Positions 18,084 to 36,335 of a DNA stretch of 64,000 nt are shown piece by piece (within the stretch, counting starts at the first letter, position 1; every line of letters begins with the position of its first letter). Location: NCBI RefSeq assembly GCF_002160895.1, contig NZ_NFLL01000005.1:1-64000 (forward strand), read 5' to 3'. The notes under the pieces are model-generated. The model made no database searches and was not told where the DNA came from. It saw nothing but the letters and a program-made list of their open reading frames with translations. The translations under genes and the position numbers were made by a program. The stretch comes from Faecalibacterium sp. An122. GTDB lineage: Bacteria > Bacillota > Clostridia > Oscillospirales > Ruminococcaceae.

Positions 18084-18120
18084 CCGAGGGCCAGACAGCC
18101 CCCGGATGGGAGGGACAAGG

Positions 18121-21069
18121 ATGCCAAAGGATTCCGAACGCCGGGAGATGACCCGGCAGGAGATGGAACAGAAGGAAAAAGAAAAGTTCAACACGTTTTT
18201 CACCACCAGCGTGGCCCAGGTGCCGGAGGAGATGATCAACCCCACCCGGACCGCCAGCCAGCCCGACCGCAAACACGGCCTGCTGGCCCGGTTCTTCGGC
18301 AAAAAGGAGAAAGCCGGCGGCCTGTCCCCGGAGAATGAGCCCGAGGAAGAGCTGTTCTGGGCCGAGACACCCATTGCTCCCGCCCCCACCGGTGAGATCA
18401 TGCTGGACAGCTCGGCCCCCGCCAAAGAACCGCCGGTGGTCACCCCCTCTCTGGAGGAATTGACCCTGGAACTGGAGGGCGCGGACGAGAAGCCGGTCCG
18501 GGCTCCGGAAGCCCCCCGCCCGGCCTCCAAGGCCGAACCCGCCCGCACACCGGTCCAGGCAGCACCCGCTGTCAAACCGGCCGTCTCTGCCCCCGAGGAA
18601 AAGCGGGAGGAAGCCGGTTCCGCCGCCGCCAAACTGGCCGCCGAACTGGAAAAGCCCCCGCTCTCGGCGGCCGCACGGGCCGAGGCCCGGCGGGCAGCCG
18701 CCCGGCCGGCCGCTTCGGCAGCACCGCAGACCACCGTCCGGGCCGCTGCTCCGGCTCAGCCGGTCAAGGCAGCGCCGGTGGTGAAAGCCGCCGCCCAGGT
18801 CAAACCGGCGGCCAAGCCGGTGCAGACGGCCGTCTCCGCCGCCCCGGCCCAGAGTCCGGCCCCCGAGGCTGCTCCCAAAGCCGCCGCCAAACCCGCTGCA
18901 GCTGCGGCCCAGCCGGAACCCGTTTCCGCCCCGCCCAGCAGTGAGCGGGAAAAACTCCAGTGGATTCTGGACGGCGGCAAGGGGATTCCCACATCCCGGA
19001 AAAAGAAGGTCGTCCAGCCGGAGGAGGACAAGGAGATCACCCAGCAGGTGGGCGGCTTCCACTTCTTCGGCGTAGGGGAGGATGAAGCGCCCCGGGGCGA
19101 TGCCTTTGGCCAGGGCATGGAGGATACCATGAGCCTGGAACTCCACGAGGACAGCGAAGAACCTGCCTCCGCCGGAGAGCAGGCCTCCGCCCCCGAGCAA
19201 GCCGTCAAGGCAAAGGGCCGCCGCAAGGGCAAAAAGGCCCGGGTTGAGGCAGCTCCTGCAGAGCACGCCGCAGCCCATACCGCCCCGGAACACGCCGCCG
19301 AGACCTCCGCCCAGGAGGAACCCGCTTCGGAGCCGGCCGCCGAGGCCGAGCTGCCCCAGACCGGCGAGGAGGCGGCCCAGGCTCTGGACCAGACCGTGGC
19401 CGCCATGAATCTGCGCTGTGCCCTCAGCGGCATTCTGGCCGCCGCCCTGATCTGGGCCGGGTTTATTTACGAGGGCTTCCTGCCCGGGATGGCAGGCCTC
19501 AGCCCCGACACCGCCCCGGCGGCCTTTATGGGCGCCAACCTGCTGCTGTTGGCGGCAGTGCTGGCAGTGTCCCGCAACACCATGCGGGATGGCCTGCTGG
19601 GCCTGGTGAAAGCCCCCTCCTATGACACCATGCCGGCGCTGGCCGGCGCGGCGGCATTGCTCCAGTCTCTGGTGGCTCTGCTGAATCCCGCCGCCTACCA
19701 GGGCACCACCCTGACCCTCATGAGTGGCGCGGCCGCTCTGGCCCTGTTCCTGAACAACCTGGGCAGCCGCCTGCTGGCGGTGTCGGTGCGGGATGGCTAT
19801 AAGGTAGCCACCAGCGGGGTGGCCCACGAGGGCGCCTACCGGGTGCAGGACAAGGAACTGATCCACAGTCTGGACCCGGTCCAGGAAGCAAGGGATCCCT
19901 GGATTCTCCTCAGCCGCCCCGTGGAAGGGGACGGCTCCTTCCTGGCCCAGAGCTTCGGCCCCCACACCGGGGAAAAGAAAATCCAGACCTTCTCCCGCGT
20001 CCTGCTGGGATGCGCTGCGGTGGGCGGCGTCTATATGCTGCTGACCGGCAAGGGGATCAACGGTGGGGCAGCGGCCATCGCCTCCATCCTCTGCCTGGGC
20101 GCGCCTTTGTCCTCCACCCTGATTGCGGGCCTGACCGCCCTGCGGACCGAACGGACCGCCGGCGCCGTGGGCGCGGTGATTCCGGGCTGGGCCGGCGTGG
20201 AAGAGCTGAACGGCATCGACACCGTCCAGGTGGACGCCGGGGAACTGTTCACCCCCGAGAGCGCTCAGCTGGAGGATATCCGCATCTTCAAGGGCGGCCG
20301 CATCGACCGGGCTATCCTGTATACCGCCAGCGTCCTGAACCAGGGCTGCAATACCCTCAGCCAGCTGTTCCGCCACATCATCGCCGACCGCACCGACATC
20401 CTGCCTCCGGTGAAGGATCTGGAACGCCACATCGGTCTGGGCTTCTCGGCCTGGTGCGAAAACAACCGCATCCTCATCGGCACCCGTGCCTATATGGAAC
20501 AGGAAGGGATTGCCCTGCCTGAGGTCAGCTACGAGGCCCAGCATTCCCGGGACGGCGAGCTGCAGATTTTGTATCTGGCGGTGTCGGGCAATATGTACGC
20601 CATGTTTGTGCTGCGGTATATCGGCGGCAAGCACGCCGCCCGCTGCCTGTCCATTCTGCAGAAGGAGAACATCCGGGTGCTGGTCACCTGCCAGGACCCC
20701 TCCCTGACGGCGGATAAGATTGCGGCGGCCTACCACCTGCCCGAGGGCCTGATTACGGTGCTGGACGAGACCCAGAGCAGCGCTCTGACCCCGGCCATCA
20801 GCCCGGTGAGCGACGCTCCCAGCTGCATGCTGCACCTGAAGGGTTTCACCAGCCTCACCGGCGGCCTGCGGGCCGCCCAGCGGGCCCAGGCGGCGGAATC
20901 GGCCGGCGTCATGATCCAGCTGGTCTCGACGGGCTTCTCGGCCCTGATCGGCCTGCTGCTGAGCTATTCCGGCAGCGTGGGCACCCTGTCTCTGCTGGTG
21001 GTTCTGATGTATCAGGCCGCTTGGAGCGGCCTGGGAATCGCCGTCGCCGCTATGAAACAGCACAACTGA
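18121..21069 (+). CDS. P-type-ATPase-like membrane protein with eroded catalytic motifs and a long disordered N-terminus
   Basis: A 982-residue protein. Residues 1-428 are Ala/Pro/Glu-rich and look disordered. Residues 430-980 have the topology of a P-type ATPase: four helices (about 431-553), a small actuator-like insert, two helices (about 623-675), a large cytoplasmic insert and two final helices (about 930-979). Where a pump has CPC, ILCLGAPL stands. Where it has DKTGTLT, VDAGELFT stands with Asp705 retained. Where it has TGDN, VTCQDP stands with Asp859 retained. TGES is not found. I infer a pseudo-ATPase that keeps the fold but not ion pumping. Start from GGGAGGGACAAGG. It is in an operon with rlmB. 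Function is unknown. Confidence 0.75.
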   Translation: MPKDSERREMTRQEMEQKEKEKFNTFFTTSVAQVPEEMINPTRTASQPDRKHGLLARFFGKKEKAGGLSPENEPEEELFWAETPIAPAPTGEIMLDSSAPAKEPPVVTPSLEELTLELEGADEKPVRAPEAPRPASKAEPARTPVQAAPAVKPAVSAPEEKREEAGSAAAKLAAELEKPPLSAAARAEARRAAARPAASAAPQTTVRAAAPAQPVKAAPVVKAAAQVKPAAKPVQTAVSAAPAQSPAPEAAPKAAAKPAAAAAQPEPVSAPPSSEREKLQWILDGGKGIPTSRKKKVVQPEEDKEITQQVGGFHFFGVGEDEAPRGDAFGQGMEDTMSLELHEDSEEPASAGEQASAPEQAVKAKGRRKGKKARVEAAPAEHAAAHTAPEHAAETSAQEEPASEPAAEAELPQTGEEAAQALDQTVAAMNLRCALSGILAAALIWAGFIYEGFLPGMAGLSPDTAPAAFMGANLLLLAAVLAVSRNTMRDGLLGLVKAPSYDTMPALAGAAALLQSLVALLNPAAYQGTTLTLMSGAAALALFLNNLGSRLLAVSVRDGYKVATSGVAHEGAYRVQDKELIHSLDPVQEARDPWILLSRPVEGDGSFLAQSFGPHTGEKKIQTFSRVLLGCAAVGGVYMLLTGKGINGGAAAIASILCLGAPLSSTLIAGLTALRTERTAGAVGAVIPGWAGVEELNGIDTVQVDAGELFTPESAQLEDIRIFKGGRIDRAILYTASVLNQGCNTLSQLFRHIIADRTDILPPVKDLERHIGLGFSAWCENNRILIGTRAYMEQEGIALPEVSYEAQHSRDGELQILYLAVSGNMYAMFVLRYIGGKHAARCLSILQKENIRVLVTCQDPSLTADKIAAAYHLPEGLITVLDETQSSALTPAISPVSDAPSCMLHLKGFTSLTGGLRAAQRAQAAESAGVMIQLVSTGFSALIGLLLSYSGSVGTLSLLVVLMYQAAWSGLGIAVAAMKQHN

Positions 21070-23220: not shown

Positions 23221-24090
23221 ATGGAACAGACGAATGGAATGGTATGGGTGATTGTTCCGGTGTACAATGCGGCGGATACCCTTCCCAGATGCCTGGACAG
23301 TCTGCTGCGGCAGACCTATCCCCGGTGGACGGCCTGCCTCATCGACGACGGTTCCACCGACAACAGCATGCAGATCTGCCAGAAATACGCCAGGCTGGAC
23401 CTGCGGTTTGAGTGTCTGGCCAACCCCGGCCATTTTGGCCCCTCGGCCACCCGCAACCGGGGCCTGGGCCGGGCCCGGGGCACGTATGTGGCGTTTCTGG
23501 ACAGCGACGACTGGTGGGACTGCGAGTTTCTGGAAGAGATGGTGGTCATGGCCCGGCACTTTCAGGCGGATTTTGTCCAGTGCGGCTGGACCCTGGAGTG
23601 GCCCAATGGAAAGAGCCGCCCGGAGGAAAATACCTATCCGGATTTTCGCGTCTTTGACCGGGAGAACTTCTCCGGGCCGCTGACCGAAATGCTGCGGGGC
23701 ATCTCTATGAACCATGTGGCCCGCAAACTGGTGCGGCGGTCCCTTTTGGAGGGGCTGACCTTCTCCACCAAGCTGGACACGGCGGAAGATCTGGCCATGA
23801 GCTTTCAGCTTTTGATGCGGGCCCGGCGGATTGCCTTTGTGCCCGACCCCCTCTATCACTATTACCGCCACGGCGGCGGGCTGACCGGCCGCAGGCTGAG
23901 CTTTGGCCAGAAGTGGGCGGCCAACCGGGCGGTGGCCCGGATGATGCAGGCCGCCATCCGGGGAACCGACTTTGACACGGTGCGGTTCCGGTTTCTGATA
24001 TGGGCCCGCCCCTATCGTCTCCTTGCCTCCAAGGCCGTGCGGCTTTTGCGGGATCAATTCCATCAGAGTAAGGATCGTGTTCTGGAATGA
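23221..24090 (+). CDS. Family 2 glycosyltransferase (exopolysaccharide locus)
   Basis: A 289-residue GT-A fold enzyme, inferred to add a sugar to the lipid-linked repeat unit at the inner membrane face. Motifs are VIVPVYNAADTLPRCL at the N-terminus, the nucleotide-binding IDDGSTDNS, and the metal-binding DSDDWWD near residue 100. An EDLAMS acidic motif lies near residue 180, the usual catalytic-base region. No membrane helices. First gene of the locus. Its stop overlaps the next start as ATGA, showing translational coupling. Sugar specificity cannot be read from the sequence. Confidence 0.92.
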   Translation: MEQTNGMVWVIVPVYNAADTLPRCLDSLLRQTYPRWTACLIDDGSTDNSMQICQKYARLDLRFECLANPGHFGPSATRNRGLGRARGTYVAFLDSDDWWDCEFLEEMVVMARHFQADFVQCGWTLEWPNGKSRPEENTYPDFRVFDRENFSGPLTEMLRGISMNHVARKLVRRSLLEGLTFSTKLDTAEDLAMSFQLLMRARRIAFVPDPLYHYYRHGGGLTGRRLSFGQKWAANRAVARMMQAAIRGTDFDTVRFRFLIWARPYRLLASKAVRLLRDQFHQSKDRVLE

Positions 24091-25481
24091 GGAATGATGC
24101 GAGGAAATCATGCCGGACCCGCTCTCTGCGGGCCGAACGGAGCAAACGCCTGGGGGCCGACTGCGGGGTGACGGCGCTGGTCTGCGCCGTGCTGGGGGCC
24201 TGCTTGGTCCGGGTGGGCTGGATGGGCTGGCTCTGGTATGCCTGTCTGGGGATGGGGCCGGGTCTGACCCTTCTGTTCATGCGGTGGATGGAGGCCTATG
24301 ACCACTTTACGGCCCGCCTGCGGGAAATCCTGATCTGCGTGGTCCTGTCCAATGTCTATGCCTTTGGGCTGGGCTGCGCGGCGGGGTTCGGACTGTTCCG
24401 GTCCCGGATGCTGCTGGCCCTTCAGGGGGCGGGTTTCTGCCTGCAAATGGCGGGAATGCTGCTGTGCAACGGGGGACTGTACCGGCGGTTTCATCATCCC
24501 GGCATCTACCGCAATCCATCCCTTCTGGTGGTGGCGGCCCAGGGCTGTGAGGCCCGGCTCCGGCGCTTGAAATACGGGGTGCTGTCCGACTTTGACGCCT
24601 GGTATATGGTCATCGGCCAGCCCGGCCAGGAGGGACCGCCGGAGCTGTGGGAACGCCTGGAACGCTCGGACGCCCTTTGCATCTTTGACAACGTGTGGGG
24701 CCCGGTCTATGACCGGCTGATGGACTGTGCCATGAAGGCGGGAAAAGAAGTCTATACCATCCCCCGCATGACCGAGACCAACGTCAATCACAGCTGCCTG
24801 ACCCATTTTGACGATATCCCGGTGCTGTACCGGAACGACTGCCGCCTGTCCCTGGGCCAGCGGTTCTGGAAGCGGACGCTGGACCTGACGGTGGCCCTGG
24901 CGGCTCTGGCGGCGGCAGCCCTGCCCATGGCGGTGATTGCCCTGTGGATTCGGCTGGATTCCCCCGGGCCGGTGATTTACCGACAGGAGCGGTATACCCA
25001 GGACAAACGGACCTTCCGGATCATGAAATTCCGCACCATGGCGGCGGACGCCGAAAAGCAGACCGGCCCGGTGTTCGCCCGGAAAAACGACCCCCGCGTC
25101 ACCCGGGCGGGAAAGTTTCTGCGCCGGTTCCGGCTGGATGAACTGCCCCAGATTTTCAATATCCTGAAAGGGGAGATGAGCCTGGTGGGCCCCCGACCCG
25201 AGCGCCCCTTTTTCGTCGAGAAGTTTGAAAAGGAGGTTCCCCAGTACGACAGCCGCTTTGCGGTGAAGGCCGGTCTGACCGCCCTCTCCCATGTGTACGG
25301 GCGCTACTCCACCTATATCTGCGACCGGACCTATTACGACCTCCGGTACATCGTCAACTACTCTTTCCTGCTGGATATCCGGATTTTGCTGCTGACCAGC
25401 AAAACCCTGTTTATCCCCAACGCCGCGGAAGGGGAGGACGAATTCAAAGCCAAACCCATAACCCAGACAGGAAGCAGGTGA
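24087..25481 (+). CDS. Polyprenyl-phosphate sugar-1-phosphate transferase (WbaP/CpsE-like)
   Basis: This membrane enzyme is inferred to start each repeat unit by moving a sugar 1-phosphate from a nucleotide sugar to undecaprenyl phosphate. The 464 residues have several N-terminal helices (about 25-125), a soluble middle domain (FDAWYMVIGQ to IPRMTETNVN), then the bacterial sugar transferase domain from residue 255: FWKRTLDLTVA, the re-entrant hydrophobic helix, RLDSPGPVIYRQER, FRIMKFRTM, LDELPQIFNILKGEMS, VGPRPE and a Tyr-rich YGRYSTYICDRTYYDLRY tail. It overlaps the previous gene by four nt. Confidence 0.93.
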   Translation: MRNDARKSCRTRSLRAERSKRLGADCGVTALVCAVLGACLVRVGWMGWLWYACLGMGPGLTLLFMRWMEAYDHFTARLREILICVVLSNVYAFGLGCAAGFGLFRSRMLLALQGAGFCLQMAGMLLCNGGLYRRFHHPGIYRNPSLLVVAAQGCEARLRRLKYGVLSDFDAWYMVIGQPGQEGPPELWERLERSDALCIFDNVWGPVYDRLMDCAMKAGKEVYTIPRMTETNVNHSCLTHFDDIPVLYRNDCRLSLGQRFWKRTLDLTVALAALAAAALPMAVIALWIRLDSPGPVIYRQERYTQDKRTFRIMKFRTMAADAEKQTGPVFARKNDPRVTRAGKFLRRFRLDELPQIFNILKGEMSLVGPRPERPFFVEKFEKEVPQYDSRFAVKAGLTALSHVYGRYSTYICDRTYYDLRYIVNYSFLLDIRILLLTSKTLFIPNAAEGEDEFKAKPITQTGSR

Positions 25482-25486
25482 ATCCC

Positions 25487-27058
25487 ATGAAACGAAACCA
25501 GCGAACGGCAGGAAGAGGCGCGTCCGCTCACCTGCGCAGGAAAAAACCTCCCCGCCCGGGCCCCAATCTGAAATGGAGGGTCAAGCGGGCAGGCTACAGC
25601 CTGATGGCAGGCAACTGGCGGGGCACCTGGATCGGAGCGGTGGCGTTTGGCCTGGTGTGCAGCCTGCTCTTCACCAGCTATCACTATTACAGGAGCTATG
25701 CGGCGGCCAAAGCCTCCATCTCGGTGGTTTACCCCGAGATTGCCGGCGGCACCTACCCCGACGGCAGCCGCTTCACCATGTACAGCCTGGCCGATGAGGA
25801 AGCGGTCCAGGCCGTGCTGGACGAGATGCAGGCCGAGGGAAAATACAGCTCCTTTACCGCGGCGGACCTGATGCAGGGCATCCGCGTGACCGCCGTCATC
25901 GACGATTCGGTGGGGGAGACGGTGGCCTCCATGCAGTCGGAGGGCAACGACTATTCCTACTATTCCAGCCGGTACGAGATCTCCTTTGTGCAGCCCCGGG
26001 CGGGGGAAAACTTCTCGCTTTCCCAGCTCGTGGAGGCCAACCACACCGAGGAATTTCTCCAGCGGCTCATCGCCTGCAAGCAGGAGGAAATCGCCTGCTT
26101 TTACGGCAAACTCACCGCCTTTCAGGAGATGACCCGGGCGGATGTGCCCGACACGCTGGACTACGACGAGTGGGTCACCACCTTTGACGCCAACAACCGG
26201 GCCATCCGCAGCTTCCTGCGGAACATCAACCAGTCGGCGGGGAATTTCCACTCCGACACCACCGGCAAAACCATCGGGGACCTGATCGGCATGTTCACCA
26301 CCATGGGGGAGGAGCGGCTGACCGAGATCTCCAACTATATCAAAAATTCCGGCCTCACCAGGGACCGGGAGAGCTTCCTCAACAAACTCAACGTCCGGAT
26401 CGAAAACGCCGCCCTGGCCTGCGGCAAGGCGGTGGAGGAGGCGGCCATCAACGGCTACGCTATGAACGCCTACGACCACACCTTCACCGAAAACCTGCTG
26501 ATTGTGGCCACCAGTGCGGACAACGGCCTGTACCAGGCCCGGCCCAAGACGGTGTTTGACACGGTGGTCAACCAGTACAACGACGCCACCAACCGGTCCA
26601 TCGAGTATGCCAACAGCATCCAGGATATGCAGGATGAGCTGGCCATCTATCAGCAGACCGACGAGACCTCGGCCGAGTATCAGCGGATGGCGGCCCGGTG
26701 CAGCGAACTGATGGAGGCCTATGAGGCCGACTATCGGGACCTGTGCGCCCTGGCCATGACCACCCTGACCGATTACCTCTCCTTCCACAACAACGGCTAC
26801 CTGGAAGGTCAGGTGGAGCCCGACCGCCTGTTCAGCCTGCGCTTTGTGCTGCGGATACTGGGGGTGTTCGGGATGGGCAGCCTGGTGGTGGTGATGATGC
26901 GGGTGGTGCTCTCGCCGCTGGGAGACCGCCGGACACTGCGGCGGCGCCGCCGTGAGATGGAGCGGAACCAGCAGGACCAGGCTGAGGGCAGACCTGCCCC
27001 GAAACACAGCGCGAAAGGAGGCCGGAGAAGATGCTCACAATCACCGAACTGTTTCTGA
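25487..27058 (+). CDS. Wzz-like polysaccharide copolymerase, first of a tandem pair
   Basis: A 523-residue protein with the chain-length-determinant layout: a basic N-terminal cytoplasmic stretch, one membrane helix at about 48-66 (WIGAVAFGLVCSLLFTSYHY), a large external domain of about 380 residues rich in helices and heptads, a second helix at about 448-474 (VLRILGVFGMGSLVVVMM) and a very basic cytoplasmic tail (RRTLRRRRREMER). It lacks any ATPase motifs. Start at the ATG with AGGTG six nt upstream; GTG three codons earlier overlaps the preceding stop and is an alternative. Overlaps the next gene by 28 nt. Assignment rests on topology and context more than sequence motifs. Confidence 0.75.
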   Translation: MKRNQRTAGRGASAHLRRKKPPRPGPNLKWRVKRAGYSLMAGNWRGTWIGAVAFGLVCSLLFTSYHYYRSYAAAKASISVVYPEIAGGTYPDGSRFTMYSLADEEAVQAVLDEMQAEGKYSSFTAADLMQGIRVTAVIDDSVGETVASMQSEGNDYSYYSSRYEISFVQPRAGENFSLSQLVEANHTEEFLQRLIACKQEEIACFYGKLTAFQEMTRADVPDTLDYDEWVTTFDANNRAIRSFLRNINQSAGNFHSDTTGKTIGDLIGMFTTMGEERLTEISNYIKNSGLTRDRESFLNKLNVRIENAALACGKAVEEAAINGYAMNAYDHTFTENLLIVATSADNGLYQARPKTVFDTVVNQYNDATNRSIEYANSIQDMQDELAIYQQTDETSAEYQRMAARCSELMEAYEADYRDLCALAMTTLTDYLSFHNNGYLEGQVEPDRLFSLRFVLRILGVFGMGSLVVVMMRVVLSPLGDRRTLRRRRREMERNQQDQAEGRPAPKHSAKGGRRRCSQSPNCF

Positions 27059-29244
27059 TGATGAAAAAGTACCTCCTGCCTGCGGTGGCTGCGGCGTTTC
27101 TGGGGGCGGTGGCCACCTATCTGGGGGTGCTGCTGGTGCGGGATTACACCTGCACCCTGACCTTTCAGTACAACTATGAGGGGGCGGAGGAAAATCTGGC
27201 CCCCGACGGGGCCAGCACCCTGGACCCCTACCAGATGCAGAACCCGGCGGTCATCCACTCGGCCCTGGACCGGATGGGGATTTCCACCGCCGGCAGCGAC
27301 ATTCAGGTGGAGGACATCCGCAACAACATCTCCATCAGCAAGGTCTATACCTCCCAGGACCAGGAGGTGGCCGAGGCGGCCGCCGTTCTGGGGGAGAATT
27401 ACGCCCTGAAAACCTCGGAATACCGGCTGACCTATACCTATCCCGCCCTGCTGGGAGAGAACTATGGGAAACTGATCTGCAACGGCCTGATCAACGCCTA
27501 CGATGACTTTTTCATCGAGAATTACTACGACAAAGACGTCATCCCCGATTTCATGCAGAACATAGCCCGCTCCAATGTGGACTATCTGGATTTGGCCAGC
27601 GTCATCAAGAAAAACTTTGACGACGTCATCGCCACCCTGAACGACTACGCGGCGGCCTATCCCAATTACCGCTCCAGCCGCACCGGCTACAGCTTTGCCG
27701 AGCTGGCCGAACTGTACCAGAACGCAGAGAACGACCTCTACGCCCAGCTGGAGGGGAATATCCGGGCCGGAAACCTGGCCAGGGACCCGGAACTGGTGGT
27801 CAAGAACTACACTACCACCGTCCGCAGCCTGCTGATCAGCGAGGAGACCTACAACGAGATCGCCGAGAGCTACAAAACCCAGATCAAAACCTTCTACGAC
27901 AGCTACAAGGCCACCGGTCTGTACAGCCAGGCGGCGGGCACCCAGGTGACCCAAAACTCCTCCAACAACCGGGACCAGAACGTCCTGCGGGACTATGAGC
28001 ACGACTTTGAAACCCTCATCAATACCTACGACAGTATCGTTCTGTCCTATACCCAGCAGGCGGCCCTGGCCTCGGAGGCCCGGCTGGACCGCACCTATTA
28101 CCTGAACATCATCCAGGCCCTCCAGGCCGACCAGGTGGCGCAGGACACCAAGACCCGCCTGGTCGAAAAAAATGAGGCCCTGCTCCAGACCATGACCGAG
28201 ATCACCGGCCGTTACTGCGGCTGGGCAAACGAGAGCATCGACGAGCTGTTTGACCAGATTGTGGCGGAGGATATCCAGTATCTGATTTCGGCCAACGTGA
28301 CCAGCGATATCTCCATCCCCTTTGCCCTGGCCTTTGCGGCGGTGGTGATGGGGGCCATGGTGATGCTGGCGGGGATGGTCCGGGAGGTTCTCCTGAAAAA
28401 CAACCCCGAGCTGGCAGCCCCCGGCGAGCCGGAGAGCGAAACGGCCCAGCCCCGGGACCGGGAACACGCCGCGGCCTATGAGCAGTACAAACAGGGCTTC
28501 CCCGAGTTCTTCCTGGTCTATCAGGAGATGCAGGCCGGCATCCGGGCCGGAGCGCCCCGGTACGAAGCCTATGTGCGCTGGAACAGCGCCCAGCTGGGTC
28601 CGGTGTCCGTCCGGCAGATGTTCCGGTATTTCGGCGACCTGAACCTGATGATGGAGCTGAACGACTGGATTGTGGAGACCGTCTGCCGGGATGTCCGGCG
28701 GTTTGAGGCCGAACTGGGCGTGGCGCCGGTGATCCATATCAACTGCATGTTCTCGGAGGTGGCCGACTTCGGCATGACCGATATCCTGCACAAAAACAGT
28801 CAGGCGTCGGGTGTGGCGGCCTCCTGCCTGTGCGTGGAGATGGACGGCCGGGACATCATGTCCTGCGTCCGGGAAATGATGCTGATGCAGAAGATGGGGT
28901 ATCCGGTCTGCGTGGACCACTTTGAGGATAAGGCCCAGGCGGAGGAGATTCTGGCCATCTTCCGGCCCGACTATGTGAAGGTGTCGGGCAATATCTTCCG
29001 GGCCGATGAGGCCGCCCCGGCCGGGGAGGGCCTGCAGAACCGGCGGGACATCCTGGACTACCTGAAAACCACCATCCGCTCCTGCCACGAAAACGGCATA
29101 GGCTTCTGTATCAGCGGCATCGAGAACCAGGAGGAAGACCTGCTGATTTACAGCCTGGACATTGACTACAAACAGGGGTACTACTATGGCTATCCTGCCG
29201 CCATGGATGACCTGCTGAAGGATCTGCGGGAGACTGCAGAATGA
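27031..29244 (+). CDS. Wzz-like copolymerase fused to a degenerate EAL (cyclic di-GMP) domain
   Basis: A 737-residue protein. Membrane helices at about 15-35 and 428-450 flank a 390-residue external domain, the Wzz pattern. The cytoplasmic C-terminus (about 488-735) aligns with EAL phosphodiesterases: E512-A-Y-V-R-W for EAL-R-W, N571 (INCMF), E603 (VEMDG), D629-H630 (VDHFE for DDFG), K650, S695-G-I-E698 for EGVE, and KQGYYYG for QGYYF. The second metal Asp (to His) and the EGVE Glu (to Ser) are lost, so I infer binding without hydrolysis. This would let cyclic di-GMP set chain length or polymer output. Start has AAAGGAGG nine nt upstream. Confidence 0.82.
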   Translation: MLTITELFLMMKKYLLPAVAAAFLGAVATYLGVLLVRDYTCTLTFQYNYEGAEENLAPDGASTLDPYQMQNPAVIHSALDRMGISTAGSDIQVEDIRNNISISKVYTSQDQEVAEAAAVLGENYALKTSEYRLTYTYPALLGENYGKLICNGLINAYDDFFIENYYDKDVIPDFMQNIARSNVDYLDLASVIKKNFDDVIATLNDYAAAYPNYRSSRTGYSFAELAELYQNAENDLYAQLEGNIRAGNLARDPELVVKNYTTTVRSLLISEETYNEIAESYKTQIKTFYDSYKATGLYSQAAGTQVTQNSSNNRDQNVLRDYEHDFETLINTYDSIVLSYTQQAALASEARLDRTYYLNIIQALQADQVAQDTKTRLVEKNEALLQTMTEITGRYCGWANESIDELFDQIVAEDIQYLISANVTSDISIPFALAFAAVVMGAMVMLAGMVREVLLKNNPELAAPGEPESETAQPRDREHAAAYEQYKQGFPEFFLVYQEMQAGIRAGAPRYEAYVRWNSAQLGPVSVRQMFRYFGDLNLMMELNDWIVETVCRDVRRFEAELGVAPVIHINCMFSEVADFGMTDILHKNSQASGVAASCLCVEMDGRDIMSCVREMMLMQKMGYPVCVDHFEDKAQAEEILAIFRPDYVKVSGNIFRADEAAPAGEGLQNRRDILDYLKTTIRSCHENGIGFCISGIENQEEDLLIYSLDIDYKQGYYYGYPAAMDDLLKDLRETAE

Positions 29245-29276: not shown

Positions 29277-29454
29277 GCATGGGGAAACGATGACGAGCTT
29301 TGTTTCCCGCGGTGCGATGGCGGCGGGTTTCAGAAGCCGGGGACACCCCCGATTGTCAGCGGCGGCTGCGGCAGCAACCCGCCGGAACTGGTTCCGGCGC
29401 CCCTCCGCCATGGGAAAGCCAATGTGTCCTGAGCTGGGAGAGGAGGGGCCGCAG
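29277..29454 (+). promoter_or_regulatory. Candidate structured RNA leader before the second GT2 gene
   Basis: ATGGCGG (29317) pairs with CCGCCAT (29405); stacked inside, CGGGTT (29324) pairs with AACCCG (29376). Hairpins CGGGG/CCCCG (29338-29351) and the palindrome CCGGAACTGGTTCCGG (29382-29397) fit the same fold, and GGGAAAC/GTTTCCC precedes it. The downstream start is at 29455. No known riboswitch class was recognised. Confidence 0.35.
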
Positions 29455-30453
29455 ATGGTCTATGTGGTGGTGCCGGTGTACAACATGGAGCCCTATCTGG
29501 AACGGTGCGTGGAATCGGTTTTGAACCAGACCCTGCGGGAGATCCGGGTGGTCCTGGTGGACGACGGTTCCCGGGACGGCAGCGGCGCCCTCTGCGACCG
29601 GTACGCCGCAGCCTGTCCCGGCCGGGTGTGGACGGTGCACCAGCCCAACGGCGGCTTGTCCGCCGCCCGGAATGCGGGGCTGGCCCGGTGCTTTGCACTG
29701 TCGCAGGACCCGGCCCGGGACTATGTGCTGCTGCTGGACGCGGATGATTTCATCCGGCCTGATTTCCTCGCCTATGCGCTTTCCGTCTGTGAGAAAGAGA
29801 ACTGCGACGGCGTCCAGGTGGACTGGGTCCGGGGGATCGGCAGCCGCTTTCCCCCGGAAACCCGGGACCCGGGGCCGGTGCGGATTCTGACCGGGGCCGG
29901 GGCCCTGCTGGACCCCGCCGTCAAGACCACCTTCTGCACCAAACTCTACCGGCTGGAACTCTACCGCGGCGAATCCTTCCCCCTGGGGAAGATGAACGAG
30001 GACGAATTTCTCTTTTACCGCCTGCTGTGGAAGTGCCGCCGCTTTGGGGTCAGCCGGGCCAAAATGTACTATTACTTCCAGCGCCCGGGCAGCATCATGG
30101 ACACGGTGGCCCGCGCCCTCAAAGACAATCCCCGCCGCCGCGACTGGCGGGAGGCCTTTGGGGAGCGAATCGCCTTTTTTACCGCGCTGGGGGAGAAGCG
30201 GCAGGTCCAGCGCTGCTATGAGCGGATCTGCATTGAGCTGATGTTCCGGTACGCCGAACAGATGAACCTGCCCCGGGACCGCCGGGCTGCCGAGGCGGCC
30301 GACGGCACCATGGTGCGGGAATACCGTGCCTTTTACCCCAAAATGATCGGGCTGGACACCATCCGCCCGCTGCGCAGGCTGCTCTTCACCCTGTTTTATC
30401 TCTGCCCCATGGGGGCGGTGCTGGCCTCCAGAATCCACCCCCTGCGCCGGTAA
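29455..30453 (+). CDS. Family 2 glycosyltransferase (exopolysaccharide locus)
   Basis: A 332-residue GT-A enzyme starting VYVVVPVYNMEPYLERC, with nucleotide-binding VDDGSRDGS, acceptor-side NGGLSAARNAG, and metal-binding LDADDFI near residue 100. A NEDEF acidic motif near residue 182 is the probable catalytic base. One weak hydrophobic segment near the C-terminus (LFTLFYLCPMGAVLAS) may anchor it to the membrane. Start at ATG with AGGAGG eight nt upstream. The frame is open further upstream to 29290, but that stretch folds as RNA and lacks a better ribosome site. Confidence 0.9.
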   Translation: MVYVVVPVYNMEPYLERCVESVLNQTLREIRVVLVDDGSRDGSGALCDRYAAACPGRVWTVHQPNGGLSAARNAGLARCFALSQDPARDYVLLLDADDFIRPDFLAYALSVCEKENCDGVQVDWVRGIGSRFPPETRDPGPVRILTGAGALLDPAVKTTFCTKLYRLELYRGESFPLGKMNEDEFLFYRLLWKCRRFGVSRAKMYYYFQRPGSIMDTVARALKDNPRRRDWREAFGERIAFFTALGEKRQVQRCYERICIELMFRYAEQMNLPRDRRAAEAADGTMVREYRAFYPKMIGLDTIRPLRRLLFTLFYLCPMGAVLASRIHPLRR

Positions 30454-30468
30454 GGAGGGACTGTCCGG

Positions 30469-31797
30469 ATGATTTCATCACTGAGCCCGGGACGGCTGAA
30501 AGACCGGCCCCGGCTGGAGCTGTATTACGACGCGGCCTTTCTGGTCAGCCTGCTGTGCTGCAGCCTGGTGGGCGCGTTCCCTCAGTACAGCTTGCTTTTG
30601 TCCTGCGGGATGGTGCTGTGTTTTGGAACCAGCCTGTTCAGCGACAACTTTTTTCTCTATGCGGCCCTGTTCCTGTTCATGCGGAACAAGATGGTCATCG
30701 GAGACACCACCGCCTATCGCTTTTACTCCTATCTTCTGGTGCTGAAATGCGTCTGGGAGCTGCCCCGGTTCAAAATCCGGGTCGCCTATCTGCCGGTGCT
30801 GTTTGTGCTGGCCATGCACTGCGTCTTTGCGGCGGGCCGGTACAATCTGCGGATGGGCCTGAACGTCATTGTGGACGTGGTGCTGGTCTATCTGATTCTG
30901 GCCCGGGTGGAGCAGGACGACGCCCTGACCCGCCGCCTGCTGACGGCCTTTCTGCTGGGCATGGTGCTGTCCGGCATTTACGGCTTCACCGCCTCCGACG
31001 CTTTCAAGGATATTCACGTCACCGGCGCCGGCTCCGAGACGGTCAGCCGCAATTTCGGCGCCCTGGGCGACGCCAATTACGCCGGCTTTTTCTATGACGC
31101 AGCCGTGCTGACCGCCCTGGTGGTGAAGGGGATTCCCCGGTGGCTGCGGGTCTTTTTTGTGGGGCTGGGCCTGGTGCTGGTGGTCCGCACCGCCAGCCTG
31201 TCGGCCCTTGCGTCCCTGGGCCTGGCCCTGTGCTTTCTGCTGATCCTGAAAATGCGGAGACGGGCGGTGCCGGTTTTGCTGTGTGCCGGGCTGGCCGGCG
31301 CGGCGGGAATTGCCCTGGTGATGTCTGTGCCGTTTCTGGGCAATCTGCCCGGCATCCACGGCCTGGTGCTCCGCCTGACCGAGAAACTCTATTACATCCG
31401 GCTGGGCCGGTGGGATATGCTCACCACCGACCGCGCCGTCCTGTGGGCGGCGGCCTGGAGCCTGTTTGTCAGCAAGGGCCTGGCAGGCCGGCTGCTGGGG
31501 GGCAGCGTCATCACCTATATGATCCAGGAGACCGCCCTCCTGTCCTCCTACATGGCCTGTCACCAGTCCTATCTGCAGGCGCTGCTGAACTTCGGCATAT
31601 TGGGCACCGTGGGCATTTACGGGCCTTTGCTGCTGCTGTTCCTTTACCGGCTGGCCAATCACTTTCTGCGCCCGGCGGGGTACGACAGGGAGGACATCAA
31701 AATCATGCAGCTGGTGTATGCGTTTCTGTTCTTTGTGTTTGGGTTCACCATTGACTTTTTCATCGACTGGACCTTTCTCTTCTTCTGCTTTTTCTGA
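30469..31797 (+). CDS. Wzy-like polysaccharide polymerase
   Basis: A 442-residue polytopic membrane protein with about ten hydrophobic helices, the hallmark of Wzy/O-antigen ligase family proteins, which join repeat units on the outer face of the membrane. A large extracellular loop (about 305-365, LRLTEKLYYIRLGRWDMLTTDRAVLW then HQSYLQALLNFGILGT in two parts) contains the RxxxW and HxSYL-type residues typical of the family. No other polymerase is present in the locus. Start has AAGGAGG upstream and lies 15 nt after the previous gene. Confidence 0.82.
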   Translation: MISSLSPGRLKDRPRLELYYDAAFLVSLLCCSLVGAFPQYSLLLSCGMVLCFGTSLFSDNFFLYAALFLFMRNKMVIGDTTAYRFYSYLLVLKCVWELPRFKIRVAYLPVLFVLAMHCVFAAGRYNLRMGLNVIVDVVLVYLILARVEQDDALTRRLLTAFLLGMVLSGIYGFTASDAFKDIHVTGAGSETVSRNFGALGDANYAGFFYDAAVLTALVVKGIPRWLRVFFVGLGLVLVVRTASLSALASLGLALCFLLILKMRRRAVPVLLCAGLAGAAGIALVMSVPFLGNLPGIHGLVLRLTEKLYYIRLGRWDMLTTDRAVLWAAAWSLFVSKGLAGRLLGGSVITYMIQETALLSSYMACHQSYLQALLNFGILGTVGIYGPLLLLFLYRLANHFLRPAGYDREDIKIMQLVYAFLFFVFGFTIDFFIDWTFLFFCFF

Positions 31798-31818
31798 GGG
31801 CCGCAAAGGAGGGTGCGC

Positions 31819-32634
31819 ATGGGAAACACGCTGGAGGAAATTCATGCCGTGCAGCTGTCTCTGCTGGAGGACTGCCGCCGCATCTGCGAGGCCCACGGGA
31901 TTCCCTATTATCTGGCCCAGGGCACCCTTCTGGGGGCGGTGCGGCACCGGGGCTTTATCCCCTGGGACGACGACATCGACCTGCTGTTCCAGGCCGACGA
32001 CCTGGACCGGTTCATGGCGGCCTTTGCGCAGGACCCGCCTCCCGGCGTGTCTCTGGAACACTGCAGCCAAAACCCCTGGATGCCCTATCCCTGGGTCAAG
32101 CTGAAACGGCAGGGCACGGCGTCCATGCCTCTGGCCTATCGGGAAATCCCCCTGGACTGGGAAATTGGCATCGACCTGTTTCCCTATTACCGGGTGGGGG
32201 ACGGCCGGCTGGCCCATGGGCTGGCCCGGGCCCGGTTTCTGGGGGCCAAGCGGCTGCTGGGGGTTACCCTGACCTTCTGTGAGAAAAAGGTCAAGTGGCT
32301 CAGCCGTTTGATCCGCCGCCTGCCGGTTGCATGGCGGCAGCGGGCGGCCCTGTGGCTTCTGGAGGGGCTGAAACGGCATCAGGCGGAAGGCGAGGATGTC
32401 TTTGCCCTGTGCCGGGGCGGGAAATTTTTAAAGCGCAGCTGGATCGAGGGAGCCCGGTGCAGCGGCATCTTTGAGGGGCGGGAATACCCCCTCCCGGCGG
32501 ACCCGGACGCCTTTCTGGCGGCCATGTTCGGGGATTACTGGCTCCTTCCGCCGGAAGACCAGCGGAAGGGCCACGACTTGAAACTGGGGGAGATCGTGTG
32601 GGACACCGAAAGAAGCTATCGGGACTATCTGTGA
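31819..32634 (+). CDS. LicD family phosphotransferase
   Basis: A 271-residue LicD-type protein. LicD enzymes transfer phosphocholine or another phospho-substituent from a CDP-linked donor onto cell-surface glycans. The signature GTLLGAVRHRGFIPWDDDID lies at about residues 38-57, and the conserved WEIGIDLFPYY at about 113. A small insertion (140-190) is basic and hydrophobic. No licA/licC choline genes are in the window, so the substituent is unknown. Start with AAAGGAGG seven nt upstream. It sits within the exopolysaccharide locus and probably decorates the polymer. Confidence 0.9.
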   Translation: MGNTLEEIHAVQLSLLEDCRRICEAHGIPYYLAQGTLLGAVRHRGFIPWDDDIDLLFQADDLDRFMAAFAQDPPPGVSLEHCSQNPWMPYPWVKLKRQGTASMPLAYREIPLDWEIGIDLFPYYRVGDGRLAHGLARARFLGAKRLLGVTLTFCEKKVKWLSRLIRRLPVAWRQRAALWLLEGLKRHQAEGEDVFALCRGGKFLKRSWIEGARCSGIFEGREYPLPADPDAFLAAMFGDYWLLPPEDQRKGHDLKLGEIVWDTERSYRDYL

Positions 32635-32687
32635 CCCTGCCGCCGGCGAAAAAGAGGGCTTTCAAACCCGGGACAGGAGATGAGAGG

Positions 32688-33938
32688 ATGGAGCACCCCG
32701 AACACAAAAAGAAAAGGCTTCTGGTAGTCTTTTCCCATAACCACATCGGCGGGGCCATGACCGCCCTGGTGAACTTTGTCAACAGCCTGGACCCCCGCCG
32801 GTACCAGGTGGACCTGCTGTTTTATGAGCTGCGGGGCCCGGTGGAAGGCATCCGGCCCGAGGTGCGGGTTCTGCCCCCGGCCCGGGAAAACCGGCTCTGT
32901 CCGGCCCGGTTTCTGGACCCGGTCTATCTGGCCGGGTATCTGGGAGCCCGGTACCTGATCCGGGTAAAACGCAATGAGCTGCTGGCCTGGCAGCTGTTCT
33001 CCCGGCGGTCGTGCCGCTATGCCCGCCGTCTGAACCAGAAGTACGACGCCGCCCTGGCCTTTGAGCTGGGCTGGCCTTTTTATTACACCATGCAGTATGT
33101 TCGGGCGGACAAAAAGCTGGTGTGGCACCACAACGATTACCACGCCATCGGCTACCGCTTTGAATGGGACAAAAAGTACTTTGACCGGGCGGACGGCCTG
33201 GTATTTGTCAGCCGGGAATGCCGAAAGAAATTCGCCGCCCTGCACCCGGCGTACCGGCCCCGGTGCTTTTTCATGCCCAACATCCTGACCCGGGAACAGG
33301 TGGAAGCCCGGGCCCGGGCCTATCGGCCCCGGCTGCCCTTTGAGCTGGCGCGCCCGGGTCTGAACCTGGTGACGGTGGCCCGGATTTATTTTGCCACCAA
33401 AGGGCTGGACCGGGTGCTGGACGTTTTGGTCCGTCTGCGGGAGGAAGGGTTTTTGGAGCGGGTGCGGTGGATGGTCATCGGCAAAGGGGACGACCTGCCC
33501 CGGTTCCGGCAGATGATCGCGGACCGGGATCTGGAACAGGTGGTGTACCCGGTGGGGGCCATAGAAAACCCACTGCCTTACCTGCCCCTGTTTGACGCCT
33601 TTTTGCTGCCCTCCCGCAATGAGGGCCGGCCGGTGGCGGTGACCGAGGCCCAGATTCTGGGCCTGCCGCCGGTGGTGACCCGGTACGCCTCCGCCGCCGA
33701 GCAGGTGGAAGACGGGATGGACGGGTTTATACTGGAAAACCAGGACCAGGCCCTTTATCAGGGCCTGCGGGACCTGGTGCTTCACCCGGAAAAGCTGGAC
33801 CGGGCGCGGGAAGCGCTGCGCCGCCGCAGCTATTCCAACCAGGAGGACATAGCCCGCTTTGACCGGATTCTCCGGGCGGTGGAGCAGGGCGGAGAAGGAG
33901 GAGACGCCCATGATTTCGGTGGTGATACCGGTGTATAA
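32688..33938 (+). CDS. Family 4 glycosyltransferase (exopolysaccharide locus)
   Basis: A 416-residue retaining GT-B enzyme. The N-terminal domain begins LLVVFSHNHIGGAMTALVNF with the acceptor-binding Gly pair. The C-terminal domain has LVTVARIYFATKGLDRVL, YPVGAIENPLPYL and the E-x7-E motif EGRPVAVTE, which binds the nucleotide sugar. No membrane helices. Start at the ATG preceded by AGGAGATGAGAGG. The last 29 nt overlap the next gene, and the C-terminus encoded there (GGEGGDAHDFGG) looks like by-product sequence rather than a domain. Confidence 0.92.
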   Translation: MEHPEHKKKRLLVVFSHNHIGGAMTALVNFVNSLDPRRYQVDLLFYELRGPVEGIRPEVRVLPPARENRLCPARFLDPVYLAGYLGARYLIRVKRNELLAWQLFSRRSCRYARRLNQKYDAALAFELGWPFYYTMQYVRADKKLVWHHNDYHAIGYRFEWDKKYFDRADGLVFVSRECRKKFAALHPAYRPRCFFMPNILTREQVEARARAYRPRLPFELARPGLNLVTVARIYFATKGLDRVLDVLVRLREEGFLERVRWMVIGKGDDLPRFRQMIADRDLEQVVYPVGAIENPLPYLPLFDAFLLPSRNEGRPVAVTEAQILGLPPVVTRYASAAEQVEDGMDGFILENQDQALYQGLRDLVLHPEKLDRAREALRRRSYSNQEDIARFDRILRAVEQGGEGGDAHDFGGDTGV

Positions 33939-34857
33939 TGGGGAGGCGTTTGTCGCCCGGGCGGTGCAGAGCGTGCTGGACCAGACCAGCCCCCGGTGGG
34001 AGATTGTGGCCGTGGACGACGGCTCCCAGGACGGGACCCGGGCCATTCTGGAACAGTTTGCCGCCCGGGACCCCCGTATACGGGTTCTGCACCAGGAGAA
34101 TGCCGGCGTTTCCGCCGCCCGCAATGCCGCCATGGCGGCGGCCCGGGGGGAGTATCTGGCCTTTCTGGATGCGGACGATTGGTGGTATCCGGATCATCTG
34201 ACCACCCTGGAACAGATGATCCGGATTTATCCAAAGGCGGGATTGCTGGGGACGGCCTGTGATATCCGTTTCCACGATGGCCGGACGGGAAACACCGCCG
34301 GCTTTTTTGAGGGCAAGCCCAAGACGTTGTATCTGGAGAACTTTCTGGAAGCCTACAGGGCGGACAAGCGGGCCAAATGCTTTGCCCTCAGCTCCACCTG
34401 TGTCCGGGCCGATATGGCCCGCCAGGCGGGCGGATTCCGGGTGGGATGCCGCATAGGGGAGGACCTGGGCCTCACCCTCCGGATCGCTGTCGCCGCGCCG
34501 GCAGTCCTCTGCGCCCGGCGGACCGTCCTGTACAACAAGGCCCAGAGCACTGCAACCCGGGTTCAGTCCTTTGACCCCGACTGGTATTTCTTTGAGGAGG
34601 CCAGGGCCCTGGCGGAGGACCCGGCCCTGACCCCGGAACGCCGGGCCAGCCTGGCCCGGGTGATGGCCTGGTTTGAGGTGCGGCGGGTCCGCCATTACCT
34701 CATCGACGGGCGCCGCCGGGAGGCCTGGGCGGCCTTCTGCCGGCGGGATGCGGCCCCCGGTCTGGCCGGGGACTGGCTGCTCACCGGGCTGCTGTTTCTG
34801 CTGCCCTGCGCTCTGGTGCGGCGGATCTTTCTGTTCCGCTGGCGGAACAAGGCGTAA
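33910..34857 (+). CDS. Family 2 glycosyltransferase (exopolysaccharide locus)
   Basis: A 315-residue GT-A enzyme: MISVVIPVYNGEAFVARAV, VDDGSQDGT, ENAGVSAARNAAM and the metal-binding LDADDWWYP near residue 90, with GEDLGL as the catalytic acidic motif near 185. The C-terminal 20 residues are hydrophobic then basic (LLFLLPCALVRRIFLFRW) and may contact the membrane. AGGAGG lies inside the end of the preceding gene, seven nt before ATG, so the two are translationally coupled. It is the third GT2 of the locus. Confidence 0.92.
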   Translation: MISVVIPVYNGEAFVARAVQSVLDQTSPRWEIVAVDDGSQDGTRAILEQFAARDPRIRVLHQENAGVSAARNAAMAAARGEYLAFLDADDWWYPDHLTTLEQMIRIYPKAGLLGTACDIRFHDGRTGNTAGFFEGKPKTLYLENFLEAYRADKRAKCFALSSTCVRADMARQAGGFRVGCRIGEDLGLTLRIAVAAPAVLCARRTVLYNKAQSTATRVQSFDPDWYFFEEARALAEDPALTPERRASLARVMAWFEVRRVRHYLIDGRRREAWAAFCRRDAAPGLAGDWLLTGLLFLLPCALVRRIFLFRWRNKA

Positions 34858-34871
34858 GGGAGGGGGCAGCC

Positions 34872-36335
34872 ATGACAAACGACAGTCCCCGCCGCAGAGA
34901 CGGCATTGCATCCGGGCTGTTCTGGTCCTTTGGGGAGCGGATGTCGGCCCAGGCGGTGGCCACGCTGGTGGCTATGCTGCTGGCCCGGTTGCTGGACCCC
35001 GCCGACTACGGGATGATCTCGGTGGTGACGGTGTTTGTCAGCCTGTGCAATATCTTTGTCACCAGCGGTCTGGGCACCGCCGTGGTGCGCAAACCCGGCG
35101 CCGGCCCCGCCGATTTCAACACCGCCTTTTGGCTGAGTCTGGGCCTGGCGGCGGTACTGTACGGCCTGCTGTTCTGGGCGGCCCCCGCCATCGGCCGGTT
35201 TTACGGCCTGCCCGCCCTGACGGCGGTGATGCGGGTGATGGGTCTGCGGCTGATATTGGCCGCCCTCAACAACATCCAGCGGGCCAGCGTCCAGCGAGAG
35301 ATGGCCTTCCGCCGGTACTTTGCCGCCTCCCTGCTGGGGACGGTTCTGTCCGGGGCGGCGGGGGTGGCGGCGGCGCTGGGCGGTCTGGGCGTCTGGGCGC
35401 TGGTGATTCAGTCTCTGTCCAATCTCGCCGTCCATGCAGGCGTTTTGCTGGCGGTGGGCCGGTGGCGGCCCCGGTTCCAGTTCTGCCCGGCCCGGGCCCG
35501 GTACATCGTCTCCTTTGGCTGGAAGGTCCTGGCCGCCGATCTGGTGCCCGGCCTGCAGCAGAACGGCCGCAGCCTGATTGTGGGAAAAGTCTTCGGCTCG
35601 GCCGAGCTGGCCTTTTACGACCAGGGGAGCAAGTATCCTGCCCTGCTGGTGGACAATGTGAACAGCTCCATCAACAGCGTCATGCTGCCCGCCTATGCCC
35701 GGGTGCAGAATAACCCGGAGGCTTTGCTGGGGATGCTGCGGCGGTCCATCCGGATGGGAATGTTTCTGCTGGGGCCGATGCTGGTGGGATTTGCGGCGGT
35801 GGCTGAAAATTTCGTGCGGGTGGTCCTGACCGACAAGTGGCTGCCCTGCGTGCCCTTTCTGCAGATTTTCTGCGCGTCCTGTTTGACCCGTCCCCTGGAA
35901 ACCTGCTGCCACAAAATCCTGCTGGCAGTGGGACGGGAGACGGCCCCGCTGCGGATCATTGCGGCGGTGAACCTGACGGCGGTGGCCACGGTGCTGGCGG
36001 CAGCCTTTTGGTTCCACAGCATCCTCCTGATGGCGCTGGGAAACCTGCTGGTGACCCTGGTGAGCCTGGCGGGCTTTATGGCGGCTTCCAGCCGGTATGT
36101 GGGGTACCGGCTGGGCCGGCAGATGGAGGATATTCTGCCCTCGCTGGCGGTCTCGGCCCTGATGGGAATTCTGGCCGGCCTGGCGGGTCGTCTGCCGCTG
36201 GAACCGCTGCCCCTGCTGGGGGTCCAGATGGGGGTAGGAGTGGTGTCCTATGGGGTTCTGTCCGCCCGGTTCAACCGCGGCCCGCTGGATGAAATGCGGG
36301 CCCTGGCGGCCCGCCGGCTGCACAAAACCCCATGA
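34872..36335 (+). CDS. Wzx-like lipid-linked oligosaccharide flippase
   Basis: A 487-residue polytopic protein of the polysaccharide transport family (MOP superfamily), inferred to move undecaprenyl-linked repeat units across the membrane. It begins with the typical GLFWSFGERMSAQAV helix, followed by LLARLLDPADYGMISVVTVF and DFNTAFWLSL, then about 12-14 hydrophobic helices including QQNGRSLIVGKVFGSAELAF and a Pro/Gly-rich central region. It closes the exopolysaccharide locus and is followed by a terminator. Start with GGGAGGGGG eight nt upstream. Confidence 0.92.
   Translation: MTNDSPRRRDGIASGLFWSFGERMSAQAVATLVAMLLARLLDPADYGMISVVTVFVSLCNIFVTSGLGTAVVRKPGAGPADFNTAFWLSLGLAAVLYGLLFWAAPAIGRFYGLPALTAVMRVMGLRLILAALNNIQRASVQREMAFRRYFAASLLGTVLSGAAGVAAALGGLGVWALVIQSLSNLAVHAGVLLAVGRWRPRFQFCPARARYIVSFGWKVLAADLVPGLQQNGRSLIVGKVFGSAELAFYDQGSKYPALLVDNVNSSINSVMLPAYARVQNNPEALLGMLRRSIRMGMFLLGPMLVGFAAVAENFVRVVLTDKWLPCVPFLQIFCASCLTRPLETCCHKILLAVGRETAPLRIIAAVNLTAVATVLAAAFWFHSILLMALGNLLVTLVSLAGFMAASSRYVGYRLGRQMEDILPSLAVSALMGILAGLAGRLPLEPLPLLGVQMGVGVVSYGVLSARFNRGPLDEMRALAARRLHKTP

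Follow-up and report, generated by a model that had tools for sequence, protein, structure and literature searches.

A polysaccharide co-polymerase-like protein fused to a degenerate EAL domain in Faecalibacterium sp. An122 and its relatives in Clostridia

The window analysed here is a stretch of 64,000 nucleotides of Faecalibacterium sp. An122 (contig NZ_NFLL01000005.1, positions 1 to 64,000), and this study concerns one gene on its forward strand, which encodes a protein of 737 residues with a front part resembling a polysaccharide co-polymerase and a cytoplasmic EAL domain at the C-terminus. The best single reading, which we judge from sequence comparisons to be marginally probable, is that of a co-polymerase that binds cyclic diguanylate (c-di-GMP) without cutting it. 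A preliminary description of the DNA had called such a regulatory design unusual; the fusion is no single case and belongs to a clade of EAL fusions in Clostridia with a sister clade that carries a GGDEF-like domain at the same place. The domain architecture is conserved, and it stands on firm ground together with the clade and the residue pattern. The proteins join known parts in a new way, and the loss of the metal site among them is graded. As far as listings and the beginnings of abstracts go, searches of the open-access literature turned up no account of an EAL or GGDEF domain joined to a co-polymerase. The gene and the parts of its product are as follows.

27015..27021, forward strand: ribosome-binding site AAGGAGG upstream of the fusion gene
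27031..29244, forward strand: gene for the co-polymerase-like protein fused to EAL, 737 residues, start codon ATG
27070..27141, forward strand: first membrane helix, residues 14-37, from hydropathy; a helix in the structure model too
27142..28296, forward strand: outside part, residues 38-422 (385 residues), from the model of residues 1-460 and its fold matches in the PDB
28297..28398, forward strand: second membrane helix, residues 423-456, from hydropathy
28504..29193, forward strand: cytoplasmic EAL domain, residues 492-721, from Pfam and an EAL search of the own genome
28918..28920, forward strand: codon of H630, in place of the second DDFG Asp (a metal-2 ligand); alignment, ligand mapped by spacing and motif
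28984..28986, forward strand: codon of S652, Asp of K-x-D (a metal-2 ligand) lost; alignment, ligand mapped by spacing and motif
29113..29115, forward strand: codon of S695, in place of the first EGVE Glu (a metal-2 ligand); alignment, ligand mapped by spacing and motif

Hydropathy gives two hydrophobic segments only, residues 14-37 and 423-456, which bracket the 385-residue outside part in agreement with the two-helix Wzz topology proposed in the preliminary description. The EAL domain proposed there was likewise recovered by a profile search (PF00563, residues 492-721, 92.8 bits, E 2.8e-26, cut-off 31.3), and the match is far from chance. An artefact or frameshift as the origin of the fusion is ruled out because 13 further EAL fusions of the same domain order are present in other genomes.

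The assignment as a chain-length regulator of the Wzz type is supported by the fold search and not by the profile. PF02706 (Wzz) gave no match to the window protein in the Pfam scan, and in relatives it stayed below the cut-off of 25.5 bits, with sub-threshold matches in six of the ten scanned (E 0.0014-0.0077), in L153 (E 0.0027) and in L143 (E 0.00094) and the best score in L066 (24.9 of 25.5 bits, E 2.6e-5). A sequence search of the PDB with the front-part profile yielded coiled-coil matches and nothing real (best E 0.051). The assignment is therefore based on fold, topology and gene context. A model of residues 1-460, calculated from an alignment of four rows (both members of the gene pair from the window and from L087), reached a mean predicted local distance difference test score (pLDDT) of 79.5; a full-length model from two rows (mean pLDDT 52.6) was not used. 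Foldseek returned 11 PDB matches at E<=1e-3 for this model, and all 11 were co-polymerase entries: nine of Wzc or Wza-Wzc, the others being 6rbg, entitled 'full-length bacterial polysaccharide co-polymerase', and 8p3p (WzzE). The template modelling (TM) scores are low but the ranking is clean, which supports a predicted Wzc/WzzE-like fold. The co-polymerase-fold outside part is flanked by the two helices, and the gene lies in a Wzx/Wzy-type cluster with an initiating sugar transferase. Wzz and Wzc act on the Wzy polymerase in chain-length control.

The metal ligands of the EAL domain were transferred from PA3825, for which Bellini et al. (PMC5301497) name Glu39, Asn98, residue 130 and Asp160 at site 1 and Asp161 plus Asp183, or Asp160 plus Glu217 in the calcium form, at site 2. 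By spacing and motif these positions correspond to residues 512, 571, 603 and 629 (site 1) and 630, 652 and 695 (site 2) of the window protein. E512, N571, E603, D629, K650, E698 and Q715 are all kept, as the preliminary description had stated, and the alignment confirms its losses H630 and S695; it had overlooked the loss of the Asp of K-x-D (S652), of the Glu at 606 and of the Leu of the EAL motif (Y514). With H630, S652 and S695 the window protein does not have the intact metal-2 residues of an active EAL phosphodiesterase, and its catalytic site is broken as in degenerate EAL receptors. Loop 6 after DDFG is rewritten, and the window protein shares the loss of all three metal-2 ligands and of the loop-6 Glu with 10 of the 13 remaining EAL fusions. 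Metal site 1 behaves differently in the alignment: its ligands E, N, E and D are present in 14/14. At 630/652/695 all three ligands are lost in 11 of the 14, the window protein (HSS) included; L136 is intact (DDE), L137 has lost one (NDE) and L143 two (NSE). Position 630 of the 11 complete losers is Arg in six, Lys in three, His in one and Gln in one, thus a basic side chain in 10/11. All seven metal ligands were kept in 16/16 comparison EAL domains of the same bacterial family, a set that represents part of the EAL matches of the family search, with many further ones outside it (18 loci chosen, two dropped for want of a clean frame, one pair more than 90% alike).

Eleven positions of the pocket and of metal site 1 are invariant in all 14 EAL fusions: Q498, E512, R516, N571, E603, D629, K650, E698, Q715, G716 and P722. 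The c-di-GMP contacts of FimX include Q463, R481, Q673, G674 and E653 (PMC7288161), and the first four correspond by motif and spacing to Q498, R516, Q715 and G716 of the window protein. EAL/c-di-GMP complexes with metal 1 alone are listed in Table 2 of PMC5301497, and LapD, which has a Lys at the Glu of EAL (a metal ligand) and a loop 6 that is not conserved, still binds c-di-GMP (PMC3032553). Since the metal-1 residues are kept and the metal-2 site is lost, the pattern fits the 'binding without hydrolysis' of the preliminary description, with the reservation that the ExLxR motif reads ExYxR in the window protein. A decaying, unselected EAL domain is disfavoured by the eleven invariant positions, despite the lower overall conservation of this part.

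The search for the same domain order in related genomes, which the preliminary description had asked for, recovered the clade. Whereas a first search of 197 genomes of the same family had found one full-length relative (G082, the contig of L087, 30% identity), front-part profiles detected relatives in 48/396 genomes of the family (profile A2, E<=1e-8), 22/394 of the order and 50/391 of the class (both A3, E<=1e-8) and 6/398 of the phylum (A6, E<=1e-10); the four samples overlap in genomes and include the own genome. Frames of more than 580 residues at the match of the second pair member were present in 6 family, 13 order, 31 class and 1 phylum genomes. From the sampled Clostridia genomes the C-termini of 48 distinct fusions were read, and reading and alignment assigned 14 to the EAL and 34 to the GGDEF-like class. 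Pfam placed EAL over the cut-off in all six of the 14 that were scanned (window, L136, L137, L125, L066, L143); on seven of the 34 GGDEF-like fusions, GGDEF exceeded the cut-off in six and fell below it in L070. A search of plasmid sequences gave no match.

In a tree calculated from the front part only (58 rows: 14 EAL, 34 GGDEF-like, ten without an extra domain; rooted by midpoint only), one branch (support 100/98) separates all 14 EAL rows from the rest, and another (100/100) does so for all 34 GGDEF-like rows. The simplest reading of these sequences is a single gain of each domain; a loss from a GGDEF-EAL ancestor is a possible alternative origin. Within the EAL clade L136 splits first (94/62, weak), followed by L137 with L143, and the 11 complete losers stand together (100/99). 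The loss of metal site 2 therefore follows the tree, with a poorly supported first step. L136 (7186-9480) retains all seven metal ligands and K650 and may be a still active phosphodiesterase from early in this series of losses. Long low-complexity tails follow the GGDEF-like or EAL domain in L121:1501-4143 and in L066:2988-5561.

The sister clade has lost catalysis as well. The catalytic Glu is replaced in 34/34 GGDEF-like domains (Ser 17, Gln 14, Asn 2, Trp 1). The guanine-site Asn, as in PleD, is retained in 32/34. The guanine-site Asp, its role taken from PMC7288161, is retained in 33/34, and the first metal-binding Asp in 17/34.

The proposed ligand is presumably available to the cell. The preliminary description had made its reading dependent on GGDEF proteins in the genome, and three GGDEF matches are present, two with an intact motif, next to one HD-GYP response regulator, its motif likewise intact. 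A cell without c-di-GMP is ruled out by this gene content. GGDEF matches were found in 36/36 fusion genomes tested, of 48, where the fusion itself counts in the 22 genomes of the GGDEF type and not in the 14 of the EAL type; intactness of the motif was examined in the window genome only. Two EAL proteins are encoded in the window genome, the fusion included, and the other has lost two of the three metal-2 residues (G, D, S). At L085:4434-9766 (contig C3) this sole other one, which combines a MotA/ExbB domain with EAL, lies next to a SpaA-domain protein of 737 residues and a protein of 484 residues with a Wzz-like part (sub-threshold) and a P-loop part.

We propose that two proteins make up the polysaccharide co-polymerase of this Wzx/Wzy-type cluster and that the fusion is the one with the regulatory role. 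Its outside part and membrane helices would work on the Wzy polymerase in the manner of Wzz and Wzc, and its cytoplasmic EAL domain, with metal site 1 kept and the three metal-2 side chains lost, would bind c-di-GMP without cutting it. Binding would affect the pairing of the domains in the subunit ring and in this way alter chain length or switch polymerisation. The effect on chain length is assumed by analogy to Wzz and Wzc; its direction, high c-di-GMP leading to more polymer, would follow the example of PssE (PMC4125290).

Several observations weigh against this proposal. The FimX contact E653 maps by spacing to position 695, which is lost (PMC7288161). A review regards ExLxR as the motif that decides whether inactive EAL domains bind c-di-GMP, and also reports that a change of Leu to Met in this motif of CsrD goes with absent binding (PMC10333796); the Leu position is occupied by Tyr in the window protein, by Phe in eight of the 14 EAL fusions and by Leu in five. 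In FimX of X. citri the same position seems, judged by spacing, to be Phe, which would soften the objection. Conservation is lower in the EAL part than in the front part, both between the window protein and eight relatives (33-38% vs 41-44%) and between it and L066 (24% vs 31%); the Foldseek TM-scores amount to 0.16-0.29 by query length; and the active site of L136 is apparently intact. In the sister clade RxxD was found within 14 residues upstream in 0/34 GGDEF-like domains, which weakens the view that all these proteins bind c-di-GMP; the shared job of both domains, if there is one, may therefore be another. A rather unlikely explanation is that the EAL domain no longer binds nucleotides and has become a module for dimerisation or docking, like the inactive EAL-only protein YdiV. 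The altered ExLxR motif and the rewritten loop 6 would suit such a module, regulation without cutting is known from inactive EAL-only proteins (PMC10333796), and since the sister clade's GGDEF-like domain is dead and devoid of RxxD, a shape rather than a ligand could be what the two domains share. A pure scaffold, however, would not need the eleven pocket and metal-1 positions that are kept in 14/14, and the GGDEF-like domains have likewise held on to their guanine-site Asn and Asp.

The same guanine-site residues, retained where the catalytic Glu and RxxD are gone, are compatible with a different ligand such as pGpG, guanosine triphosphate (GTP) or guanosine tetraphosphate (ppGpp), for which the EAL and GGDEF-like domains would be alternative readers. 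There are precedents in the degenerate GGDEF of CC3396, which binds GTP (PMC7288161), and in FimX-EAL, which was solved with pGpG (PMC3527489). With the first metal-binding Asp in only half of the GGDEF-like domains (17/34) we regard this as improbable. More improbable still is a slow or local one-metal phosphodiesterase that removes c-di-GMP near the co-polymerase. Its basis would be the preserved metal-1 ligands and K650, together with the complete set in L136, but the metal-2 ligands and the loop-6 Glu are missing from most of the EAL fusions and the genome already has an HD-GYP protein with an intact motif. A co-polymerase that binds c-di-GMP without hydrolysis remains our preferred reading.

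Neighbourhoods were compared in 46 loci, i.e. the window and 45 stretches (40 of 13-19 kb and 5 of 9-12 kb), so that all counts are limited to these flanks. The partner gene, which encodes the second co-polymerase-like protein, lies directly upstream on the same strand in 42/46. A CpsD-like kinase was detected in 0/46 at E<1e-2, unlike what would be seen for a co-polymerase of the bacterial tyrosine kinase type, and positive controls were found. The query did pick up the Wzz-kinase of L085, a diverged one, and, as a weaker match, an ATPase of L080. CpsC-like Wzz was found in 0/46, even at E<1e-2, and a CpsB-like phosphatase in 1/46 (L164, unfused). The preliminary description had assumed an EAL domain instead of a tyrosine kinase. 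This is right for the locus, which is without a CpsD-like kinase, and does not extend to the genome, which has a separate CpsBCD cluster at 126.7-131.7 kb of contig C45, with CpsB (PF19567), CpsC (PF02706), CpsD (TIGR01007) and an adjoining sugar transferase. In addition, six loci with apparently unfused relatives (L072-L077, frames of 493-570 residues) gave no CpsD or phosphoesterase match, and the absence of a kinase is therefore no mark of the fusion. Because of both findings the EAL domain should not simply be regarded as a replacement of the kinase, and that claim is unsupported as stated. The CpsB-CpsC-CpsD-sugar transferase set (L084:6708-11683) is of the textbook type and lies about 100 kb downstream of the fusion.

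A calcineurin-like phosphoesterase gene on the same strand is present in 42/46 loci; in 41 it adjoins the pair, and in L150 it follows 1.3 kb downstream. The assignment was confirmed by Pfam for two (examples are L132:9959-10819 and L157:9587-10840). It was absent from the window, L155, L164 and L165 loci, which rules it out as an obligate part, and the only match in the own genome was 28% identical, on contig C78. CpsB is the phosphatase of the CpsBCD system, and the calcineurin-like phosphoesterase could be its counterpart. A partner-type match at G942:C110:18348-19457 lies within an open frame of 806 residues, so this partner may carry an extra domain. A lone partner-like co-polymerase frame with no adjoining fusion (L071:9896-11275, genome G329 of the same genus) may be a remnant.

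Wzc carries a C-terminal tyrosine kinase. The fusions share with Wzc and CpsCD the two membrane helices, an outside part of alpha/beta fold plus long helices, a cytoplasmic C-terminal domain and the Wzx/Wzy cluster; they differ in having an EAL or GGDEF-like domain in the place of the kinase of Wzc, and in loci with the scarcity of CpsD-like and CpsB-like genes described above (0/46 and 1/46). BcsA, Alg44 and PelD are of the synthase type, and to our knowledge the c-di-GMP receptors of polysaccharide formation, BcsA, PelD, PssE and Alg44, act on synthase-type pathways and not on Wzx/Wzy chain-length machinery. The closest solved sequence to the window EAL is that of MorA (PDB 4rni, 4rnj; 3.2e-11), which differs in keeping DDFG and EGVE in the alignment. 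Receptor-type domains tied to a polysaccharide pathway, as we propose for the window protein, are known from PssE of Listeria, a degenerate GGDEF receptor for c-di-GMP that is encoded in, and required by, its polysaccharide cluster (PMC4125290), and from PelD of Pseudomonas, a receptor of the same kind (PMC7288161). Both bind at RxxD in the GGDEF of a separate protein, whereas the fusions carry EAL, or a GGDEF-like domain without RxxD, on a co-polymerase-like protein. Non-enzymatic EAL domains act as c-di-GMP sensors in LapD and FimX (PMC7288161, PMC3032553), and the degenerate EAL of the window protein is a candidate for the same role. FimX keeps 4/10 residues named essential for catalysis (PMC3527489) and LapD has replaced the Glu of EAL by Lys (PMC3032553), whereas the metal-1 set of the window protein is whole and its losses are those of all three ligands at metal site 2, of the Glu in loop 6 and of the EAL Leu. 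It also lacks a GGDEF-EAL tandem, and its fused output is co-polymerase-like.

A more general idea, which we put forward tentatively and consider more doubtful than not, is that Clostridia have a class of co-polymerases ruled by nucleotide binding and not by tyrosine phosphorylation, with receptors that were derived from an EAL domain and from a diguanylate cyclase, once each. The module would consist of two co-polymerases and usually a metallophosphoesterase, the second co-polymerase bearing the receptor. On the EAL route metal site 2 would have been dismantled and the metal replaced by a basic side chain; on the cyclase route guanine recognition would have been kept while catalysis and the inhibitory site were lost. 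If this is true, c-di-GMP would directly govern the assembly of sugar chains in one branch, while GTP or some other guanine nucleotide would do so in its sister. Co-polymerase-like proteins that form a clade and have domains of the second-messenger type built in offer a direct and testable link in Clostridia, and the step from intact over partial to complete loss of the metal site is a natural set for studying how EAL enzymes become sensors or scaffolds.

The genes surrounding the fusion form, by their profile matches, a Wzx/Wzy-type cluster. The partner gene overlaps the fusion gene by 28 bases.

23221..24090, forward strand: glycosyltransferase family 2 (Pfam)
24087..25481, forward strand: polyprenyl-phosphate sugar-phosphate transferase, overlapping the partner gene (Pfam; TIGR03025 over the cut-off)
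25478..27058, forward strand: partner gene, second co-polymerase-like protein, 526 residues (profile matches; two hydrophobic segments)
29290..30453, forward strand: glycosyltransferase family 2 (Pfam)
30469..31797, forward strand: Wzy-like polymerase (Wzy_C 29.4 bits, slightly below the cut-off of 31.7)
31813..32634, forward strand: LicD family protein (Pfam)
32598..33938, forward strand: glycosyltransferase group 1 (Pfam)
33859..34857, forward strand: glycosyltransferase family 2 (Pfam)
34872..36335, forward strand: Wzx-type flippase (Polysacc_synt_3, 284 bits)

Further upstream in the window, a frame of 987 residues (18106-21069) gave no Pfam match at E<=0.001; it has a long N-terminus rich in Ala, Pro and Glu, and its membrane part resembles, by eye, a degenerate P-type ATPase.

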